Origin: Halovivax limisalsi
Lineage (GTDB): Archaea; Halobacteriota; Halobacteria; Halobacteriales; Natrialbaceae
Direction: 5' to 3'
Length of the DNA: 64,000 nt
Assembly (NCBI RefSeq): GCF_023093535.1
Contig: NZ_CP095757.1
Location: 372,001-436,000, forward strand
The notes under the pieces were generated by a model that saw only the letters and a list, made by a program, of their open reading frames with translations, made no database searches and was not told the origin of the DNA. Of the stretch, positions 28,940 through 39,771 are shown one piece after another. A program made the position numbers and the translations under genes. The number at the start of each line of letters is the position of its first letter. Position 1 is the first letter of the stretch.

Positions 28940-30664
28940 TCAGAGCTGGATGTCGTCGTCCAGGTGCTCGCCGCCCACCTGGTGGACGAGGATGGCGACG
29001 AGCAGGAGCGAGCCCATCAGCACGACGCCGAGCGCCGAGACGACCTGGTACTGTCCCTGGCTGTTCAGGTCGTTCAACACGGCGGCGACCATCTTCGTGT
29101 CGGCGCTGCCGAGCAGCATCGCGATGGGCAGTTCGAGGAAGATAATCGCGAAGCGGACCGAGAAGAGCGCCCGCGCGACCGGCACGATGAGCGGGAGGAT
29201 GATCGAGTAGATCGTCCCGATCGAACTCGCGCCGCTGACCTTGCTCGCGTCGATCAGGTCGTCGTGGACCTGCACGACCGACGGATAGACGATGCGGATC
29301 GTCGACGGGAGATAGCGGATGCAGTAGGCCAGGACGAGGATGAAGATCGTTCCGTAAATCCCGATGGGGAACAGGAAGAGGTAGATGAACATGATCCCGA
29401 CGCCGAGCGCCGCCGACGGGATCCCCATCGGGAGGAAGGAGAGGTAATCGATGTACCGCCGGAAGGGCACGTCCGTCTTCTCGATGAGCCACACGACGAA
29501 GAGGCCGATCGCCATCAGGAAGACGGTGGCCAGCCCGGCGACCATCACGCTGTTGAGAACGCCGTCGACGATCGCGGGATTGTCGAACAGCCCGGCGTAG
29601 CCCTCGATCGTGAAGTCGGGGACGTTCTCGGTGAGCGGAGAGACGTAGTAGGGAAGCAGCGAGGCGTAGACCATCACGATCACCGGGATCACGACGGTGA
29701 TCAGGACGTAGACGCCGACGACGGCCGAGACGACGTAGCGCCACCGCCCGATGTCGATCGCGTTCCGCGAGTAACCCTCCCCCGAGACGGTCATGTACTT
29801 CTCGGTCGCGCCGAGCGTCTTGTAATACGAGTAGAGCAATGGGATCGACATCAGGACGAGGAGGATCCCCGCCGCCATGGCCACGCCGTACTGGATCGGT
29901 TGCGTGTTGGTGGCGTCGTAGATGTAGGTCGCGAGCACGTTGATGTTGTTGGGCTCTCCGATGACGAGCGGGACCCGGAACGCGCCCAGGTTGATGATCA
30001 GCGTGAGGACGAACACCATCAGGATCCCCGGTTTCGCGATCGGGAGCGTGATATCCGTGAGGATGCTGCGCAGCGAGGCGCCGGACGTTTTGGCCGCCTG
30101 TTCCATCGAGTTGTCCATGTTCGAGAAGATCGGCGAGAGCAAGATCAGCCCGAACGGGACGAAGCTCACGCCCGACACGACGATCATGCCCGGAAGCGAG
30201 TAGATCGAGAAGTCGAAGCCGAGCAACTGGGTATAGATCCCGTTGTTCCCGAGCAGGAAGACCCAGACCTGCTCCCACGTGATCGGCGGCGCAAAGAGCA
30301 GCGCCAGGAGGAGGTAGTAATAGGGACCCGACAGCGGCAGATCCGTCCGCGTGAGGACGAGAGCGATGATCGTCGACAGGATTGTAGTGAGAACAGTCGC
30401 CCCAACCGCGTAGACGACGGTGTTGAAGATGACGGGCCTGAGCGTCACGAACAACGTCGTCCAGTTCTCGAGCGTGAAGGCCTCGAAGACCGTCACGTTG
30501 GAGCCGAAGAACGACCCGCCCAGGAGGACCAGAATCGGGAGGATATTGAAGTAGATCAGGCTAAGCAGGACGACGGCGCCGACGAGCGTCGCCCTGTTCC
30601 GACCGACGTGTTCCGAAGCGACGGCTTTCAGCGTGTGCAGATAGTGACGGCCAGAAGATGACAT
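28940..30664 (-). CDS. ABC transporter permease, fused two-domain (FbpB-like)
   Basis: The 574-residue protein has about 12 membrane helices in two halves. Each half carries an EAA loop for contact with the ATPase (EQAAKTSGASLRSILTDITL and IDASKVSGASSIGTIYSIIL). Such fused permeases occur in importers of ferric iron, 2-aminoethylphosphonate, thiamine or polyamine type. The gene begins 6 bp after the stop of the binding-protein gene, so both form one operon. No ATPase gene follows; the best candidate partner is the FbpC-like ATPase at 35785. Confidence 0.88.
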   Translation of the reverse strand: MSSSGRHYLHTLKAVASEHVGRNRATLVGAVVLLSLIYFNILPILVLLGGSFFGSNVTVFEAFTLENWTTLFVTLRPVIFNTVVYAVGATVLTTILSTIIALVLTRTDLPLSGPYYYLLLALLFAPPITWEQVWVFLLGNNGIYTQLLGFDFSIYSLPGMIVVSGVSFVPFGLILLSPIFSNMDNSMEQAAKTSGASLRSILTDITLPIAKPGILMVFVLTLIINLGAFRVPLVIGEPNNINVLATYIYDATNTQPIQYGVAMAAGILLVLMSIPLLYSYYKTLGATEKYMTVSGEGYSRNAIDIGRWRYVVSAVVGVYVLITVVIPVIVMVYASLLPYYVSPLTENVPDFTIEGYAGLFDNPAIVDGVLNSVMVAGLATVFLMAIGLFVVWLIEKTDVPFRRYIDYLSFLPMGIPSAALGVGIMFIYLFLFPIGIYGTIFILVLAYCIRYLPSTIRIVYPSVVQVHDDLIDASKVSGASSIGTIYSIILPLIVPVARALFSVRFAIIFLELPIAMLLGSADTKMVAAVLNDLNSQGQYQVVSALGVVLMGSLLLVAILVHQVGGEHLDDDIQL

Positions 30665-30670
30665 GTGGAG

Positions 30671-31744
30671 TTAGAAACCCAGGATCTCGGACGCGCGTTG
30701 GTTGTAGGTCGCACTTTCTTCCTCGGTGAAGATGACGGCGTACATCTCGTCGACGTACTCGTCGATCTGGTTCTGGATGTACTCGCTCCGGCCGCTCATG
30801 TCGGGATTAATCGGTTCCGATCCGCCTTCGCCTTCCGTGACCAGTTCCTGTCCCTCCTCGGTCATCGCAAATTTGACGAACTCCCTGGCGAGTTCGGGAT
30901 TGTCGCCGGCGTCCGTCGCCGCGTAGTGGCCGGTCGACGTTCCGGTCTTCGGCGGAAGCGTCACGCCAAGCGGGGCGCCGTCCTCCCGGAAACCGGGGAC
31001 CCGGTTCAACAGCATCCAGAAGCCGACGTCGACTTCGCCGGAGAGGATCGTCTGGGGCATGTCGACGATCCCGCCCCATTGGATATCCTGCTCGCCGAAG
31101 TCGGCGAGGTAATTCTCGGCTTCCTCCGTCGAGTAGCCCAGGAACTTGTCCATCGTCCCGAGGACGTTGTACATCGCGTACTGGGCGGCCCCGATTCGCC
31201 CCTCGAAGCGCGAGTCGAGGATATCCTCGAACGTCGCCGGCGGCTCCGACACCGCTTCTTCGTGGTACAGGAAGCAGAAGGGGTTATGATACGCCGTGTG
31301 AATGAGTTGTTTGGCGTCGTCCCCGAAGATATTCGTGATCGACTCTTCGATGGAGGAGCCGAGCGCTCCCGTGTAGACTTTGTCTTGGTTGGGCGTGTCG
31401 ACGGACTGGATCGTGTCAATCGCGGGCGTCAAGAGATTCGCCAGCCCCCCGTTGAAGTTGAGGACGTCGGCCGACGTCTCGCCCGCGTCGGTCTCGGAGA
31501 TATACCGAGTCGCCCACTCCGAGCCGTTCAACGCCTCCCGGTTGACGGTGACGTCGTGTTCCTCTTCGAAGGCTTCGATGAGGGCCACGTCCGACCCCTG
31601 ATGGTAGATAAGCATCTCCTCCGAGCTGCCCGATCCGCCACCTAACCCACCGATACAGCCGGCACTTACACTCGCAACGGTAACTCCGCTCGCCGTGAGG
31701 AACGCTCGACGGGACGCTCCCCTCCTATTATTGGGGTTTGACAT
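30671..31744 (-). CDS. ABC transporter substrate-binding lipoprotein (Fbp-like)
   Basis: The 357-residue protein begins with a Tat-type signal (SRRAFLTASG) ending in a lipobox with Cys30 (SAGC), so it is anchored outside the membrane. The mature part follows the extracellular solute-binding pattern of the iron/polyamine/2-aminoethylphosphonate group (ADVLNFNGGLANLLTP, NPELAREFVKFAMTEEGQEL). The ligand is unknown. It is the first gene of an operon with the fused permease. A minus-strand TATA-like sequence at about 31783-31792 would give a short leader. A shared 23-bp dyad lies 221 bp upstream. Confidence 0.86.
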   Translation of the reverse strand: MSNPNNRRGASRRAFLTASGVTVASVSAGCIGGLGGGSGSSEEMLIYHQGSDVALIEAFEEEHDVTVNREALNGSEWATRYISETDAGETSADVLNFNGGLANLLTPAIDTIQSVDTPNQDKVYTGALGSSIEESITNIFGDDAKQLIHTAYHNPFCFLYHEEAVSEPPATFEDILDSRFEGRIGAAQYAMYNVLGTMDKFLGYSTEEAENYLADFGEQDIQWGGIVDMPQTILSGEVDVGFWMLLNRVPGFREDGAPLGVTLPPKTGTSTGHYAATDAGDNPELAREFVKFAMTEEGQELVTEGEGGSEPINPDMSGRSEYIQNQIDEYVDEMYAVIFTEEESATYNQRASEILGF

Positions 31745-33064: not shown

Positions 33065-34105
33065 ATGAGTAAGTCCGCACCACCGGCCTACAGGGCGCTC
33101 GCGCTCCAGACGAACTGCCGATCGATTCACGACGTCGGAGATTGCGACGCTGCGTCCGACCATATGGCGGCGTCGATCGAGCGACTGGACCGCCAGATCC
33201 GTTCCAGTACGGCCTTTATCGGGTCGGACTGTCGGCTCGTCGTACTCCCCGAGTACGTACTGACCGGGTTTCCGATGGGGACCTCGCTCGAGGAATGGGG
33301 CGAGACGGTCGCCGTCTCCCCCGACGGCCCGGAGTACGAACTGCTCGGCGAGATCGCGGCGGATAACGACATCTTCCTCGCCGGCAACGTCTACGAGCGA
33401 CCGCCGAACTTTCCGGACCTGTTCTTCCAGACCGACTTCGTGATCGATCCTGACGGGGACGTGATCCTCCGGTATCACCGGCTCCACTCGATGCACACGC
33501 CGACGCCGTTCGACGTCTGGGACGAGTACCTGGAGCATCACGACCGCGAGGACGTGTTCCCCGTCGTCGACACCGAAATCGGGCGGCTGGCCACGGTCGC
33601 GTCCGCCGAGATCCTGTATCCGGAACTCGTCCGCTGTCTGGCGATGCGGGGGGCCGAGGTGCTGGTACACCCGACGTCCGAACCCTACGCAACCAGGCCG
33701 ACGGCCCGCGATGTAGCCAGGCGCGCCCGAGCGATCGAAAACGGGATGTACGTGGTCTCGGCGAACACGGCCGAGATCGTGGGATCGCCGTTCCCGTCCG
33801 CGTCGGGCGACGGCGGGTCGACGATCGTCGACTATCGAGGGTCGGTCCTGACCGAGGCCGGCCAAGGAGAGACTATGTCAACATTTACCGAACTAGACCT
33901 ATCGGCGCTTCGGCGCCACCGACGACGTCCAAGACTCGAGAACACGTTACCGGACCAGCGGTTCGACCTCTACGCCGAGAGTTACCGCGACCGCGAGTTC
34001 TATCGACCGAACGCCCTCGCCGACGGGCCGGTCACGAGAGAACGACTCGCGGCGGCGCGGGCGGACACCGTCGATCGACTCGTCGAAACGGGGGTGTTCC
34101 GGTGA
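33065..34105 (+). CDS. Nitrilase-superfamily protein lacking catalytic Cys and Lys (pseudoenzyme candidate)
   Basis: The 346-residue protein has the carbon-nitrogen hydrolase fold. Compared with its relative at 37815, the catalytic Glu63 (VLPEYVLTGFP) is kept. The Lys position is Arg139 (ILRYHRLHS) and the nucleophilic Cys position is Ser180 (ATVASAEILYPE). Normal Cys-based amide or nitrile hydrolysis is therefore unlikely. It may be a regulatory or structural partner of the active amidase, or use another chemistry. Its stop overlaps the GTG of the aldehyde dehydrogenase gene by 4 bp (GTGA), so it is being translated in an operon and is not an obvious pseudogene. Confidence 0.8.
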   Translation: MSKSAPPAYRALALQTNCRSIHDVGDCDAASDHMAASIERLDRQIRSSTAFIGSDCRLVVLPEYVLTGFPMGTSLEEWGETVAVSPDGPEYELLGEIAADNDIFLAGNVYERPPNFPDLFFQTDFVIDPDGDVILRYHRLHSMHTPTPFDVWDEYLEHHDREDVFPVVDTEIGRLATVASAEILYPELVRCLAMRGAEVLVHPTSEPYATRPTARDVARRARAIENGMYVVSANTAEIVGSPFPSASGDGGSTIVDYRGSVLTEAGQGETMSTFTELDLSALRRHRRRPRLENTLPDQRFDLYAESYRDREFYRPNALADGPVTRERLAAARADTVDRLVETGVFR

Positions 34106-35541
34106 CCGAACCGATCGAGGCGCGCGATCCGCGCACCGGCGACGTCGATTATCGAGTTACGCCACCCACCGACGACGAGCTGGACCGGGTCGAGCAATCC
34201 ATTCGAACGTCCCAGGAAGGCTGGCGCGAGGAGGGCCTCGAGCACCGGCTCGACGTCCTCCAGCGGTGGAAAGACGAGATCGAGGCGAATCGAGAGCGAC
34301 TGACGGACCGCGTCGCGGCCGACACCGGGAGGCGGGGCATCTCCGCGACCGAGGTCGACGCGCTCGTGAGCATGATCGATCGCGTCTGCGAGCAGGCGCC
34401 GGCCGTCCTGACACCCGATCCGCTGGGCGAAGCGTCGATATCCTCGATTCGGCTCGACCCAGAGCTGGTGCCGTACCCGCTCGTCGGCGTCGTCAGCCCC
34501 TGGAACTTTCCCCTCTTACTGTCCGCCATCGATACGGTCCCGGCGCTGGCGGCCGGCTGCGGCGTCATCGTCAAGCCGAGCGAAGTGACGCCGCGGTTCG
34601 TCGAGCCGCTTCGCGAGACCATTGCGGCCGTCCCGGAACTCGACGCGGTGCTCGAGTACGTCCCGGGCGCCGGTCAGACCGGGGCCGCCGTGGTCGACCG
34701 GGCCGACGCCGTCGCGTTCACCGGCAGCGTCGAAACCGGCAAGAAAATTGCCCGCCAGGCCGCCGGCTCGGTCAAACCCACGTTTCTCGAACTCGGCGGG
34801 AACGACCCGGCGATCGTCCTGGCGGGCGCCGACGTCGACGCGGCGACCTCGGCGATCCTGTGGGCGTCGACGGTGAACACCGGACAGGGCTGTCAATCCA
34901 TCGAGCGCGTCTACGTCCACGAGGGGGAGTACGACCGGTTCGTGGACCAACTGCTGGAGAAAGCCGCCGACGTCGGACTGGCGTATCCGGACGAGGATAG
35001 CGGCCGACTCGGTCCGTTCATCTCGCGCGAGCAGGCCGACATCGTCCAGCGCCAGCTCGACGACGCCGCGGAGAAGGGGGCGACGATTCGCCACGGCGGC
35101 AAGATCGAGACCCACGGCGGCGGTCGGTGGCTTCGTCCGACCGTCCTGACGGACGTCGACCACTCGATGGCCGTGGCAACCGAGGAGACGTTCGGCCCCG
35201 TCATCCCCGTCGCGTCGTTCGAAACCGCCGACGACGCCGTCGAGCTCGCGAACGATACCGTCTACGGTCTCAGCGGGGCCGTCTTCGGCGAAACGGAAGC
35301 GGCCGCCATCGACGTCGGCCGACGGATCGAGGCCGGCGCGATCAGCATCAACGACGCATCGCTCACGGCCGTCCTGCAGGAAGGCGAGAAACAGGCGTTC
35401 AAGCAGTCCGGGCTGGGCCAGAGTCGGTTCGGCCCCAAGGGTATCGATCGCTTCCTCCGCCGGAAGATGCAGATGGTCAAGACAGACGCGGTGCCGGATC
35501 CCTGGTGGTACGACGTCGACGAATCGTGGCTGACCGAGTGA
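34102..35541 (+). CDS. Aldehyde dehydrogenase (succinate-semialdehyde dehydrogenase-like)
   Basis: The 479-residue protein starts at a GTG overlapping the preceding stop. It has VVSPWNFPLLLSAIDTVPAL, FTGSVETGKKIARQ, the catalytic Glu in LELGGNDPAIVL and the Cys in NTGQGCQSIERVYV. The C-terminus (RRKMQMVKTDAVPDPWWYDV) extends past the usual end by about 15 residues. It oxidises an aldehyde to an acid. Coupling to the degenerate nitrilase-like protein suggests the two are needed in fixed ratio. Confidence 0.9.
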   Translation: MTEPIEARDPRTGDVDYRVTPPTDDELDRVEQSIRTSQEGWREEGLEHRLDVLQRWKDEIEANRERLTDRVAADTGRRGISATEVDALVSMIDRVCEQAPAVLTPDPLGEASISSIRLDPELVPYPLVGVVSPWNFPLLLSAIDTVPALAAGCGVIVKPSEVTPRFVEPLRETIAAVPELDAVLEYVPGAGQTGAAVVDRADAVAFTGSVETGKKIARQAAGSVKPTFLELGGNDPAIVLAGADVDAATSAILWASTVNTGQGCQSIERVYVHEGEYDRFVDQLLEKAADVGLAYPDEDSGRLGPFISREQADIVQRQLDDAAEKGATIRHGGKIETHGGGRWLRPTVLTDVDHSMAVATEETFGPVIPVASFETADDAVELANDTVYGLSGAVFGETEAAAIDVGRRIEAGAISINDASLTAVLQEGEKQAFKQSGLGQSRFGPKGIDRFLRRKMQMVKTDAVPDPWWYDVDESWLTE

Positions 35542-35784: not shown

Positions 35785-36906
35785 ATGACAAAGCTACGAG
35801 TCGAAAACCTGACGAAGAAGTACGGCGCCCTCGTCGCCGTGAGCGACGTCGACTTCACGCTCGAGGAGGGGAAGTTACAGACGCTGCTCGGCCCGAGCGG
35901 GTGCGGCAAGACGACGCTCCTGAAGTGCATCGCGGGGCTCGAGGATCCCACGTCCGGGAAAATTTGGCTCGACGGGGAACTGGTGTGTGACGCCGACAAC
36001 GGGATGACGGTTCCGACCCGGAAGCGAAACATCGGCATGGTGTTTCAGTCGTACGCCGTGTGGCCGCACATGACCGTCAAGCAGAACGTCCGCTATCCGC
36101 TGAAAAAGCAAAACTGGGGGACGAAAGACGAACAGCAGGAGCGGGTTCGCTACCTCCTCGACGTGGTCGGCCTGGGAGCGGAGGGCGACAAACTCGCGAC
36201 GAACCTCAGCGGCGGTCAACAGCAGCGCGTCGCCATCGCGCGAGCGCTGGCCCCAGAGCCCGAGATACTGCTCTTCGACGAGCCGCTGTCCAATCTCGAC
36301 GCGAAACTCCGCCGGGAGATGCGAAGCGAGATCAAGGCCATTCAGAAGGAGTTCGAGGTCACGGTCCTGTACGTCACCCACTCCCAGGACGAAGCGATGT
36401 ACCTCTCGGATACGATCTCGATCCTCCGGGACGGCGAATTCGTCGAGCACGGGTCCCCACAGGACCTGTACGCCAGCCCGGAAACCCACTTTGCAATGCA
36501 GTTCATGGGGCAGTGTAACTCGATCGACGGCACGGTGTCGACCGTCGACGAGATGCGGATAGCGACGCCGATCGGCGACATTCGCTCCGACGATCACTCG
36601 GCCGGCGTCTCCCCCGGCGACGAGGTGTCCGTCTGTTTCCGACCCAAACACTGCCAGATCGACGACCCCTCGTCGTCGGCGGCCGACGCGAACGTCTTCT
36701 CCGGACCGATTACCGCCAGATCCCTCACGCAGGACTTCACCGAGTACGAGGTCGAGATCGAGGGCCGGTCGATCCTGGTCCGGACCGCCGACCCCCTCTC
36801 GATAACCGAGGGAGACGACGTCACGGTGTCCGTTCCGACGTCGAAAACGCGCGTCTTCGCGACCGGCGACGCCGAACAGATGCGGGCGCAGGTCGTCGAA
36901 CACTGA
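35785..36906 (+). CDS. ABC transporter ATPase (FbpC/PotA-like)
   Basis: The 373-residue protein has Walker A GPSGCGKTT, Q-loop MVFQSYAVWPHMT, signature LSGGQQQRVAIARA, Walker B ILLFDEPLSNLDA and a C-terminal TOBE-type regulatory domain (about 250-373). It energises an importer from the cytoplasmic side. Its group pairs with FbpB-like permeases, so the operon at 28940-31744, which lacks an ATPase, is the likely partner although it is 4 kb away and on the other strand. A strong ribosome-binding site (GGAGGAGG) precedes the ATG, so this transcript has a leader; a TATA-like ACTATATGC lies near 35669. Confidence 0.88.
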   Translation: MTKLRVENLTKKYGALVAVSDVDFTLEEGKLQTLLGPSGCGKTTLLKCIAGLEDPTSGKIWLDGELVCDADNGMTVPTRKRNIGMVFQSYAVWPHMTVKQNVRYPLKKQNWGTKDEQQERVRYLLDVVGLGAEGDKLATNLSGGQQQRVAIARALAPEPEILLFDEPLSNLDAKLRREMRSEIKAIQKEFEVTVLYVTHSQDEAMYLSDTISILRDGEFVEHGSPQDLYASPETHFAMQFMGQCNSIDGTVSTVDEMRIATPIGDIRSDDHSAGVSPGDEVSVCFRPKHCQIDDPSSSAADANVFSGPITARSLTQDFTEYEVEIEGRSILVRTADPLSITEGDDVTVSVPTSKTRVFATGDAEQMRAQVVEH

Positions 36907-36961
36907 GTCGCTCGCTCCTCGGACCACAAAGTACAAGCTTTTCGTGGCGGATGGTGACGAT

Positions 36962-37681
36962 ATGCACGGCTGGAAGGCCCGGATCGGCGTTATCACGACC
37001 TCCGTCAACACGGTGGTGGAACCGGAGTTCCACGAACTCGCGCCCGACGGAGTGACGATCGCGACCTCGCGACTCCGACACGGCGGGAAGACGAGCGAGG
37101 AGAACACGAATTCGATGAACGAGGACGTGAACCGCTGCGCCGAGTTGCTCGCGACGGCGAACCCGGACGCCGTCCTCTACGGCGTCACGGCGGGCAGTTT
37201 CCTCAACGGCCGGGAGTACGAGGAGGAGATGTCGGAGACCATCACGGACATCGCCGGAGCCCCGGCGATCACCGCGTCGTCGTCGATTCGACGCGCGCTG
37301 GAGACCCTCGGCGCGGAGCGCGTGTCGGTCGCGACCCCGTACATCCCGAAGTTCGACGATCGGCTCGAATCCTACCTTCGGGAGTTCGGCTACACGGTGG
37401 CGGCGATGGACGGCCACACGATCGAGGAGGGGTTCGAGATCGCCGCCGTCCACCCGGAGGCGATCTACCGCGCCGTGAAACGCGCCGATCGGCCAGAGGC
37501 CGACGCCGTCGTCATCAGCGGAACGAACTACCGGACGATGGAAGTCATCGAGGATCTCGAAGCCGACCTCGGAAAGCCGGTGGTCTCCGCCAACACCGCG
37601 TCCCTGTGGGACGTCCTCACGACGGTCGGGGTCGACCCGGCGACCGTGTCGTGCGGCGAACTCTTCGAACGAGCGGACTGA
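36962..37681 (+). CDS. Asp/Glu racemase-superfamily protein (maleate isomerase/arylmalonate decarboxylase-like) without active-site Cys
   Basis: The 239-residue protein has the two-lobed fold of maleate cis-trans isomerase, arylmalonate decarboxylase and Asp/Glu/hydantoin racemases. The two loops that normally hold catalytic cysteines read GVTAGSF (Val75 at the first position) and ISGTNYRT (Gly187 at the second). Thus both cysteines are missing; only Cys59 and Cys231 exist, outside the motifs. Anion-binding residues around the loops (TAGS, GTNYRT, SANTA) remain. Cofactor-free proton transfer by Cys is unlikely; ligand binding or other chemistry is possible. It follows the ABC ATPase by 55 bp. 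The start at 36962 was preferred to 36944 because it directly precedes the conserved core. Confidence 0.75.
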   Translation: MHGWKARIGVITTSVNTVVEPEFHELAPDGVTIATSRLRHGGKTSEENTNSMNEDVNRCAELLATANPDAVLYGVTAGSFLNGREYEEEMSETITDIAGAPAITASSSIRRALETLGAERVSVATPYIPKFDDRLESYLREFGYTVAAMDGHTIEEGFEIAAVHPEAIYRAVKRADRPEADAVVISGTNYRTMEVIEDLEADLGKPVVSANTASLWDVLTTVGVDPATVSCGELFERAD

Positions 37682-37789: not shown

Positions 37790-37814
37790 ACGAATGCAAG
37801 GAGAGTGCGAACAG

Positions 37815-38909
37815 ATGACACAGACGAGCTTCCGGGCCGCAGCCGTACAGCCCAAGATGGAGACGGCCGACGTCACCGATCCCGACTCGGCCGAGGCGAC
37901 GATTCGGAGCAATCTCGACCGGTACATGGGGTACGTCGATTACATGTGTAACGGCGGCCACGGGCCGAAACTCATCGTGTTTCCCGAGTCCTGCCTGACG
38001 AACTTTCCACGGAACCGAACGCTCGAGGCCTACCGGAACGTCGCCGTCGAACTCCCCGGGTTCGTCACGGATATCGTGGGGGAGAAAGCCCGAGAGTACG
38101 ACACCCACATCGTCATGGCCACCTACGAGGTGGACCCGGACTGGCCCGAACAGGTGTTCAACACGGCCTTCATCGTCGGGCCGAGCGGCGACCTCATCCT
38201 GAAGTACCGCAAACTCAACGACGCGCAGGTCGGGCTCCCGATCTCCGCCAATCCGGGCGACTTCTACGAGGAGTACGTGGACTTCTACGACGGCGATCCC
38301 GAGGCGCTGTACCCGGTCGTCGATACGGAGATCGGAAAACTCGCCTGTATGACCTGCGCGGACGTCCGGTACGCCGAGGTCACGCGCTGTCTGGCCCTCC
38401 AGGGCGCCGAAATTATCTGTCACCCGACGGGCGAAGGCCGGGAGGTGCAGGATTACAAGGAGAGCTACAACGCCTGCAAGCAAGTCCGGGCGTTCGAGAA
38501 CCAGGTGTACCTGATCGCGTCGAATACCGGGCAGCTGCTCGGCGGCGAGCGCCCCGAGTTCCGCTTCCGGGGTAACTCGACGATCTACGGCCCGCAAGGC
38601 GAGACCATTTCCCAGGTCGAGGGCGCCGGCGAAAGTCTGGTGACGGGAACGGTCGAACTCGAAGCGCTGAGGGAGGAGCGCGCCGGACGGATCGGGTGGA
38701 ACGTCCCGGCGACCTCGCGGTACCGGACCTACACGTCGATCATGGAGGAGAAGGAGGTCTGGCCGACCGACGCCTTCGCGGACGAACCGATTCGGTCGCC
38801 CGCGGATATCCGGGAGGTCCAGGAAGAAGCGCTGGAGAACGCCTACGAGACGGGCGTCTTTACCCGGCCGGAATCGGATTCGGGACCGACCGACGAGCAG
38901 CCGCGCTAG
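37815..38909 (+). CDS. Carbon-nitrogen hydrolase (aliphatic amidase-like)
   Basis: The 364-residue protein is a nitrilase-superfamily enzyme with a complete triad: Glu58 (VFPESCLTNFP), Lys133 (ILKYRKLND) and Cys181 (CMTCADVRYAE). Length and the region around the Cys place it near aliphatic and formamide amidases rather than true nitrilases. It hydrolyses a C-N bond in an amide, releasing ammonia. It has its own leaderless promoter. The related but inactive-looking protein at 33065 lies 3.7 kb upstream in the same direction, suggesting an active/degenerate pair. Confidence 0.88.
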   Translation: MTQTSFRAAAVQPKMETADVTDPDSAEATIRSNLDRYMGYVDYMCNGGHGPKLIVFPESCLTNFPRNRTLEAYRNVAVELPGFVTDIVGEKAREYDTHIVMATYEVDPDWPEQVFNTAFIVGPSGDLILKYRKLNDAQVGLPISANPGDFYEEYVDFYDGDPEALYPVVDTEIGKLACMTCADVRYAEVTRCLALQGAEIICHPTGEGREVQDYKESYNACKQVRAFENQVYLIASNTGQLLGGERPEFRFRGNSTIYGPQGETISQVEGAGESLVTGTVELEALREERAGRIGWNVPATSRYRTYTSIMEEKEVWPTDAFADEPIRSPADIREVQEEALENAYETGVFTRPESDSGPTDEQPR

Positions 38910-39081
38910 GTGTCCCGGCTACCGCCCTGACACGGCGAACGGCGCGGTGGAGCGATCGGCCGAACGGAGCGGTGACGACGTATCCATGTGCTAGAACGGA
39001 TCCGGGGTGTCCTACGGCCGCGCCGTCCACACCGCGGCCCAATATCTTGCTGATACCGAAACGCCTATCCGACCGTGCGCG

Positions 39082-39771
39082 ATGAAGTCAGACATGTCTG
39101 TCGTGGATGAAGAGGTATCAGCATTCGTCGAGAATATGACCTCGACGTACAACCAGAAGATGACGACGGCCGTCCGCGAGAACTTCACCGACGACTACTT
39201 CGATAGTCTCGGCGGGCCCGAGGCGGTGATGAAAAAGCAGTTTCCCGCCCAGGCCTGGCGGGAGTTCTACAACGGAACGCTGCCGCCCGCCCGGCAGATG
39301 ACGCAGGTGTACGAACTGGGCGAACCGTACGGCCGGGACCGGGACATCATCGTCGGACTCGGGAAACAGCTCAGCGACGAGGTCAAACACGCCCGGATCC
39401 TGGCGAACCTGTCCGAGGAGCTGGGTACGTCCTGCGACCTGGCGACCTGGGAGGGCGAGAACTACGACAAGTTCGTGAGCAAGTGCCGGACGACGACCGA
39501 GTGGGACGAGCCCCACCACATCGCCGCCGGCTTGCAGTGTTCGACGGAGATCATCGCCGCGCGAACGCTCGAGCGGATCGGCGAGTACGTCGAGGACGAC
39601 TACCCCGATATCACCGCCAGTCTGCGAGACATCGCGGCCGACGAGGGCGACCACATTCACGTGGGGCGGCTGATCATGAAACGGTTCGCCTCGCCGGACG
39701 AACTCGACACGCTCGACGAGATCGCCGAACGAAAGTACGACGCGGCCGTGTCCGTGCTGGAAAGCCTCTAA
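39082..39771 (+). CDS. Ferritin-like diiron carboxylate protein
   Basis: The 229-residue helical protein has two E-x2-H motifs (Glu100-His103 in SDEVKHARILA; Glu188-His191 in ADEGDHIHVG), a third-helix Glu156 (CSTEIIAARTLERIG) and candidate first-helix Glu61 or Glu78. This is the ligand pattern of ferritin-like diiron proteins. No cofactor or transit sequence is seen. Possible roles are hydroxylation or N-oxygenation of a pathway compound; iron storage is less likely given the catabolic context. An upstream AATATC-like box near 39042 favours the ATG at 39082; 39094 is an alternative. A 75-residue protein gene follows after 2 bp. Confidence 0.72.
   Translation: MKSDMSVVDEEVSAFVENMTSTYNQKMTTAVRENFTDDYFDSLGGPEAVMKKQFPAQAWREFYNGTLPPARQMTQVYELGEPYGRDRDIIVGLGKQLSDEVKHARILANLSEELGTSCDLATWEGENYDKFVSKCRTTTEWDEPHHIAAGLQCSTEIIAARTLERIGEYVEDDYPDITASLRDIAADEGDHIHVGRLIMKRFASPDELDTLDEIAERKYDAAVSVLESL

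Follow-up and report, generated by a model that had tools for sequence, protein, structure and literature searches.

The gene at 36962-37681 of the window (the whole stretch of 64,000 nucleotides of Halovivax limisalsi DNA analysed here) is predicted, from its profile match and modelled fold, to encode a folded member of the arylmalonate decarboxylase (AMDase)/maleate isomerase family in which valine and glycine occupy the positions of the two catalytic cysteines. In descriptions of this fold, racemases, isomerases and decarboxylases alike depend on one or two cysteines for their chemistry. Judged from the sequences of its relatives, the double cysteine loss is a recurrent natural state. Taken alone the haloarchaeal gene is one odd paralogue, but it points to a group that recurs and is probably misnamed. 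The existence of a recurrent group without either cysteine, often annotated as 'arylmalonate decarboxylase', makes it likely that many names in databases are wrong, and implies either that the fold has a chemistry that dispenses with cysteine or that it has been reused for binding. The question can be put directly to the test by comparing this gene with its Cys/Cys paralogue in the cell, and through IgiC in the setting of its operon.

The protein and its two catalytic positions

The reading frame is intact from an ATG at 36962 to the stop at 37681 and gives a product of 239 amino acids (Table 1). A longer alternative would start from a GTG at 36944, but the start at 36962 is preferred because relatives begin M-Y-G-W-R-A-R at the residue that matches it. 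The protein matches the Amdase profile PF17645 across its whole length (positions 1-228 of 228) with a score of 120.1 bits against a cut-off of 25.9, and the Asp_Glu_race Pfam profile weakly. An AlphaFold2 model computed from 56 rows, the query together with locus-derived relatives, has a mean pLDDT of 95 and a pTM of 0.92, and its top Foldseek matches are 4ix1 and the maleate isomerases. The structure prediction and alignment proposed by the first-pass annotation of this DNA thus recovered the maleate isomerase and AMDase fold, VIA-align superimposing the model on 2xed_A over 238 residues with a Z of 35.6 and an rmsd of 1.5, and on the AMDase of Bordetella bronchiseptica (3ixl) with a Z of 33.3.

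Table 1. Positions in the window of the gene, its catalytic loops and cysteine codons, and the neighbouring genes.
Feature	Position	Strand	Basis
ABC transporter permease	28940-30664	-	
Extracellular solute-binding protein of ABC transporter	30671..31744	-	
Carbon-nitrogen hydrolase (nitrilase-like) paralogue, Glu63-Arg139-Ser179 for Glu-Lys-Cys	33065..34105	+	profile, alignment
Aldehyde dehydrogenase, same cluster	34102..35541	+	profile matches
ABC transporter ATPase, next gene upstream, ending 55 bases before the Amdase family gene	35785..36906	+	profile matches
Amdase (PF17645) family gene, no Cys at either catalytic position	36962..37681	+	open reading frame, Pfam profile, model, fold match
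Cys59 codon TGC, outside the catalytic loops; aligned with Cys of both maleate isomerases	37136..37138	+	alignment
First catalytic loop GVTAGSF, residues 74-80; Val75 (GTC, 37184-37186) for first Cys	37181..37201	+	alignment, codons
Second catalytic loop ISGTNYRT, residues 185-192; Gly187 (GGA, 37520-37522) for second Cys	37514..37537	+	alignment, codons
Cys231 codon TGC, near the C terminus, ahead of the model's last helix	37652..37654	+	codons, model
Carbon-nitrogen hydrolase, Glu-Lys-Cys triad intact, directly downstream	37794..38909	+	profile, alignment

The closest structures are the maleate cis-trans isomerases of Nocardia farcinica (2xec/2xed) and Pseudomonas putida S16 (4fq5/4fq7), with Z scores of 34.7 to 35.6, rmsd values of 1.4 to 1.5 and 24 to 27% identity. 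They share with the query the pocket Asn and Tyr and the match to Cys59, whereas their two catalytic cysteines align with Val75 (the first) and Gly187 (the second); the title of 2xed names a covalent succinylcysteine intermediate in a cysteine mutant. Because the second loop of the isomerases carries one extra residue just before the catalytic cysteine, the match of Gly187 was fixed by the six residues that come after it. In AMDase numbering, Val75 corresponds to Gly74 and Gly187 to Cys188, the residues given in a passage of PMC4996985 as the proton donor (Cys188) and the glycine opposite it. Cys59 and Cys231 were considered as catalysts and rejected on the sequence alignment; in the model the former lies within helix 56-64 and the latter just ahead of the last helix, 233-236. 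A one-base sequencing slip is likewise ruled out, since codon 75 is at least two bases away from either cysteine codon and the same pair of residues occurs in a second species.

The first-pass annotation had proposed that both active-site cysteines are missing, a claim that would fall if Cys59 or Cys231 proved to lie in the active site. The sequence alignment bears the proposal out and places neither residue there. No acid or base replaces cysteine at position 75 or 187, and on the evidence of the sequence cysteine-based racemase, isomerase or AMDase chemistry is excluded. The protein should accordingly not catalyse maleate isomerisation, racemisation or the stereospecific protonation of AMDase, and this protein and its relatives in the same state probably do not work as their database names suggest.

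A further claim, that the ligand-binding residues remain, was right for the greater part of the pocket, the lining of which we take from the cited papers and from general knowledge of the family. Asn16, Thr76, Tyr127, Asn189, Tyr190, Arg191 and Asn211 are kept, but positions 13, 15, 77 and 210 deviate: Thr13, Val15, Ala77 and Ala210 of the query all differ from the haloarchaeal Cys/Cys consensus in the alignment. Compared with the dioxyanion hole of AMDase, described in part of PMC4996985 as Thr75, Ser76, Tyr126 and Gly189, the query agrees at Thr76 and Tyr127 and differs at Ala77 and Thr188. The hydrophobic pocket of AMDase (Leu40, Val43, Tyr48, Val156 and Met159) is faced in the query by the stretch SRLRHGGKTSEEN, which misfits by eye in a region where the alignment is gapped. 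According to the passage of PMC4996985 that treats proteins without the AMDase pocket features, arylmalonates were considered improbable substrates for them, and the one example put to the test agreed. The query scores 112.2 bits against the AMDase equivalog NF052327 (NCBIfam), for which the cut-off is 225. It matches the EutA profile TIGR02990 over its full length, but at 110.6 bits against a cut-off of 318, and profile searches of the neighbourhood recognised no ectoine genes around 36962-37681. The solved Rhodococcus opacus protein OPAG_01669 (4ix1), whose function is unnamed, has glycine at both positions and no cysteine in either catalytic loop; it shares the fold of the query (Z 29.8) but differs from it in its loop motifs and sits on a long, separate branch.

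Relatives lacking both cysteines and their descent

We read 161 archaeal loci, 107 of them obtained by searching samples at genus, family, order and class level and 54 fetched later, fragmentary or broken matches being only partly fetched. They gave 134 unique family sequences, 128 with letters at both catalytic positions. Cysteine occupies both in 121 of the 128; three are Gly/Cys, one is Arg/Cys, one (L113) is a misaligned fragment and two are Val/Gly. One of the two Val/Gly sequences is the query; the other, L045, comes from a genome (G217) of another haloarchaeal family. The two are 45% identical, and no orthologue above 45% identity was found in the genus, family, order and class sample searches. 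L045 has the same Val75/Gly187 pair and an identical GVTAGSF loop and, against the family consensus, the two have in common Thr12, Leu38, Pro68, Ala77, Phe80, Thr104, Leu135 and Ala210. A profile made from these two rows (A1) scored 471 and 461 bits, with the next best match at 275. The pocket of L045 nevertheless carries Asp14, Met188, Glu189 and His211, unlike that of the query at all four positions, so that the two proteins need not share a reaction. Their neighbours differ as well, those of L045 being branched-chain-amino-acid-type ABC genes (read by eye). The genome of the query encodes a second copy of the family at 358418-359131, 42% identical to the first and with both cysteines kept, near a hydantoinase/oxoprolinase-like gene (read by eye). 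Separately, the haloarchaeal relative L054/L086 (G202) carries arginine at the first cysteine position and cysteine at the second, as does 2dgd of Sulfolobus.

Outside the archaea, a relative on a Roseomonas plasmid is Ile/Gly, and further plasmid relatives were aliphatic/Gly in eight of eight cases, a choice biased by their having been picked from the match list of the Roseomonas relative. Profile A1 found a match in 67 of 246 genomes of the class to which Actinokineospora belongs. The best-scoring 30 loci among the matches in those 67 genomes hold 45 family proteins, of which 12 are aliphatic/Gly, 16 are Cys/Cys, 15 are Cys/Asp, one is Gly/Cys and one is Cys/Ser. A search for homologues with the same double loss, as the first-pass annotation had suggested, was therefore productive, yielding L045 and 21 bacterial aliphatic/Gly relatives, and this recurrence makes a one-off dead copy less likely.

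Residue 75 of the 21 bacterial rows is methionine in 14, valine in four, isoleucine in two and leucine in one. The one row of that alignment to combine Gly187 with Cys75 is the broken L113. Twelve residues, among them Asn16, Thr17, Pro126, Tyr127, Glu200 and Trp216, are identical throughout the 23 Gly187 rows without Cys75, a count that leaves out L043 (Phe75/Gly187). The latter, from Actinokineospora, was the sole relative obtained by a protein search of genome contigs; its identity is 28% and its branch very long. The bacterial aliphatic/Gly proteins are about 25 to 33% identical to the query and share with it the aliphatic residue 75, Gly187, Asn16 and Tyr127. Ser76, Gln185, Asn189 and Asn211 are invariant in all 21; the query has Thr76 and Ile185 instead, but agrees at Asn189 and Asn211. 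Literature searches over titles and abstract openings returned no paper on natural family members without either cysteine, which is a weak negative.

These bacterial genes are found in transporter, catabolic or biosynthetic gene groups. On plasmids of Leisingera caerulea, Rhizobium jaguaris and Bradyrhizobium elkanii (L129, L130 and L131) the aliphatic/Gly gene adjoins a large amino-acid adenylation gene, a TetR regulator and an NAD(P)-dependent oxidoreductase; an MFS transporter is present in all three, and a tautomerase is listed in the first two. All three genes are annotated arylmalonate decarboxylase, yet lack the cysteine that the name requires. The indigoidine operon of Leisingera is given in a section of PMC5014874 as igiR, igiB, igiC (arylmalonate decarboxylase), igiD, igiF and igiE, and a part of PMC12826045 describes igiC as implicated in pigment production. 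From gene order and annotation we infer that the three plasmid genes are igiC, and this context is the sole hint found for the cellular role of a cysteine-less member.

In a quick tree of 64 rows, using all columns, the query and L045 were sisters (SH-aLRT 87) among haloarchaeal Cys/Cys proteins, and the bacterial aliphatic/Gly clade was separate from them. A more careful tree of 45 rows, from which columns 75 and 187 had been removed, kept both within a haloarchaeal set into which the maleate isomerases and 4ix1 also fall, but did not resolve the two as sisters; a query-L045 clade was not rejected by the AU test (p 0.424). As the sister relation is unsupported without the trait columns, we do not claim a single origin for the pair. 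A separate haloarchaeal origin of the Val/Gly pair is nonetheless better supported than bacterial descent. Were the pair to derive by gene transfer from the bacterial aliphatic/Gly subfamily, its function would be that of the IgiC-like group; we consider this improbable. The AU test leaves unrejected a clade that unites the pair with 13 bacterial rows (p 0.356), but both trees place the pair among haloarchaeal proteins and apart from the bacterial clade, and the query has the haloarchaeal residues Thr76, Gly78, Ser79, Ile185, Ser186 and Asp217 where Ser, Glu, Thr, Gln, Val and His predominate in the bacterial members. Transfer is a matter of descent, compatible with either of the functions discussed below, and its low probability is counted outside theirs.

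The gene cluster and the possible function of the protein

The two carbon-nitrogen hydrolases of the cluster (Table 1) are 32% identical to each other. When 61 genomes were searched with the 37794 and 33065 hydrolases, the best outside relative was in G032, of another haloarchaeal genus, at 31% and 35% identity; that of the 33065 hydrolase reads Glu-Lys-Ala at the triad. No Amdase family member was present among 12 predicted genes around the G032 hydrolase, and the best plasmid relative of the 37794 hydrolase is 33% identical. One cluster thus contains members of two unrelated enzyme families without the catalytic cysteine, the Amdase-family gene and the 33065 hydrolase, a paired loss that could reflect non-catalytic partners or chance. 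Beyond the downstream hydrolase, the gene at 39007-39771 (+) matches nothing in Pfam or the PDB; the one plasmid match, in Halorussus vallis, is annotated as a ferritin-like domain protein.

The reading we favour, with confidence a little short of even, is that the protein is a cysteine-independent enzyme that binds a small carboxylate and turns it over. Both of the cysteines that serve in proton transfer or as nucleophiles have been lost and most of the carboxylate-binding shell kept, so that a small carboxylate could be held through Asn16, Thr76, Tyr127, Asn189 and Asn211. Turnover might then proceed, for example, by stabilisation of an enolate or enediolate, with the proton supplied by water or by way of Tyr127, and the reaction may be one step of a catabolic cluster with the amidase-like, aldehyde dehydrogenase and ABC transporter genes. 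Retention of the family and the fold, as seen by Pfam, AlphaFold2 and fold comparison, argues for catalysis, as do the presence of the same state in L045 and the 21 bacterial rows, the residues invariant in 23 of 23, and the transporter or biosynthetic settings of the bacterial members, including igiC, reported to be implicated in pigment formation (PMC12826045, in part). The chemistry of AMDase also speaks for it: as set out in portions of PMC12576825, the carboxylate is held in the dioxyanion hole while Cys188 supplies only the proton, to the enediolate, and with aromatic malonates decarboxylation rather than protonation is rate-limiting. In the unrelated proline racemase superfamily, dehydratases occur without one or both of the usual cysteines, with Ser and Thr in one solved case (part of PMC4113996), and a change in the cysteine pair can therefore accompany a change of reaction. 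Set against a cysteine-independent enzyme are the lack of a replacement acid or base at 75 or 187, the change of the dioxyanion-hole Ser of AMDase to Ala77, the divergence of the L045 pocket at 14, 188, 189 and 211, and the want of an orthologue above 45% identity for a selection test. Catalytic residues are, moreover, also gone from the neighbouring 33065 hydrolase, and non-catalytic partners would fit this equally well.

That fit leads to the second reading, somewhat less probable in our estimate, in which the protein is a pseudoenzyme that senses, buffers or carries a dicarboxylate or a related acid, or lends stability to another protein of the cluster. The first-pass annotation had offered both readings, a binding protein or an enzyme using a different base, and the present results accord with either. 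A pseudoenzyme would account for the absence of both cysteines and of any acid or base substituting for them, with the binding residues retained, for the pairing of a 33065 hydrolase without Lys and Cys with an intact paralogue, and for the presence of a Cys/Cys paralogue in the same genome. The bacterial aliphatic/Gly members, however, are numerous and conserved as a group, with genes in many catabolic or biosynthetic settings, which is less expected of a pure binder, and the Pfam profile search detected no DNA-binding or signalling domain attached to the Val/Gly protein. It is unlikely that the gene is a functionless, drifting paralogue whose cysteines were lost by neutral decay, as the retained Cys/Cys copy and the rarity of the state (two of 128 archaeal rows) might suggest, for the frame is intact, the third-position GC of 0.90 is the same as in neighbouring genes, the fold is retained along with most pocket residues, and a distant species (L045) shows both replacements too.

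To extend the cysteine-independent enzyme to the aliphatic/Gly proteins of the AMDase/maleate isomerase fold at large, as an enzyme class of more than one origin that includes IgiC and the haloarchaeal pair and carries out a carboxylate reaction new to the fold, is a more doubtful proposition, which we advance tentatively.

Two other arrangements were seen among the actinobacterial loci. The small genomes (1.0-1.7 Mb) of L135, L136, L138, L139 and L140 each have two to three family members, one of them Met/Gly. Of the 30 Actinomycetota loci, 15 (within L142-L163) carry a Cys/Cys gene close to a Cys/Asp gene, and the products of the two may form a heteromeric pair.
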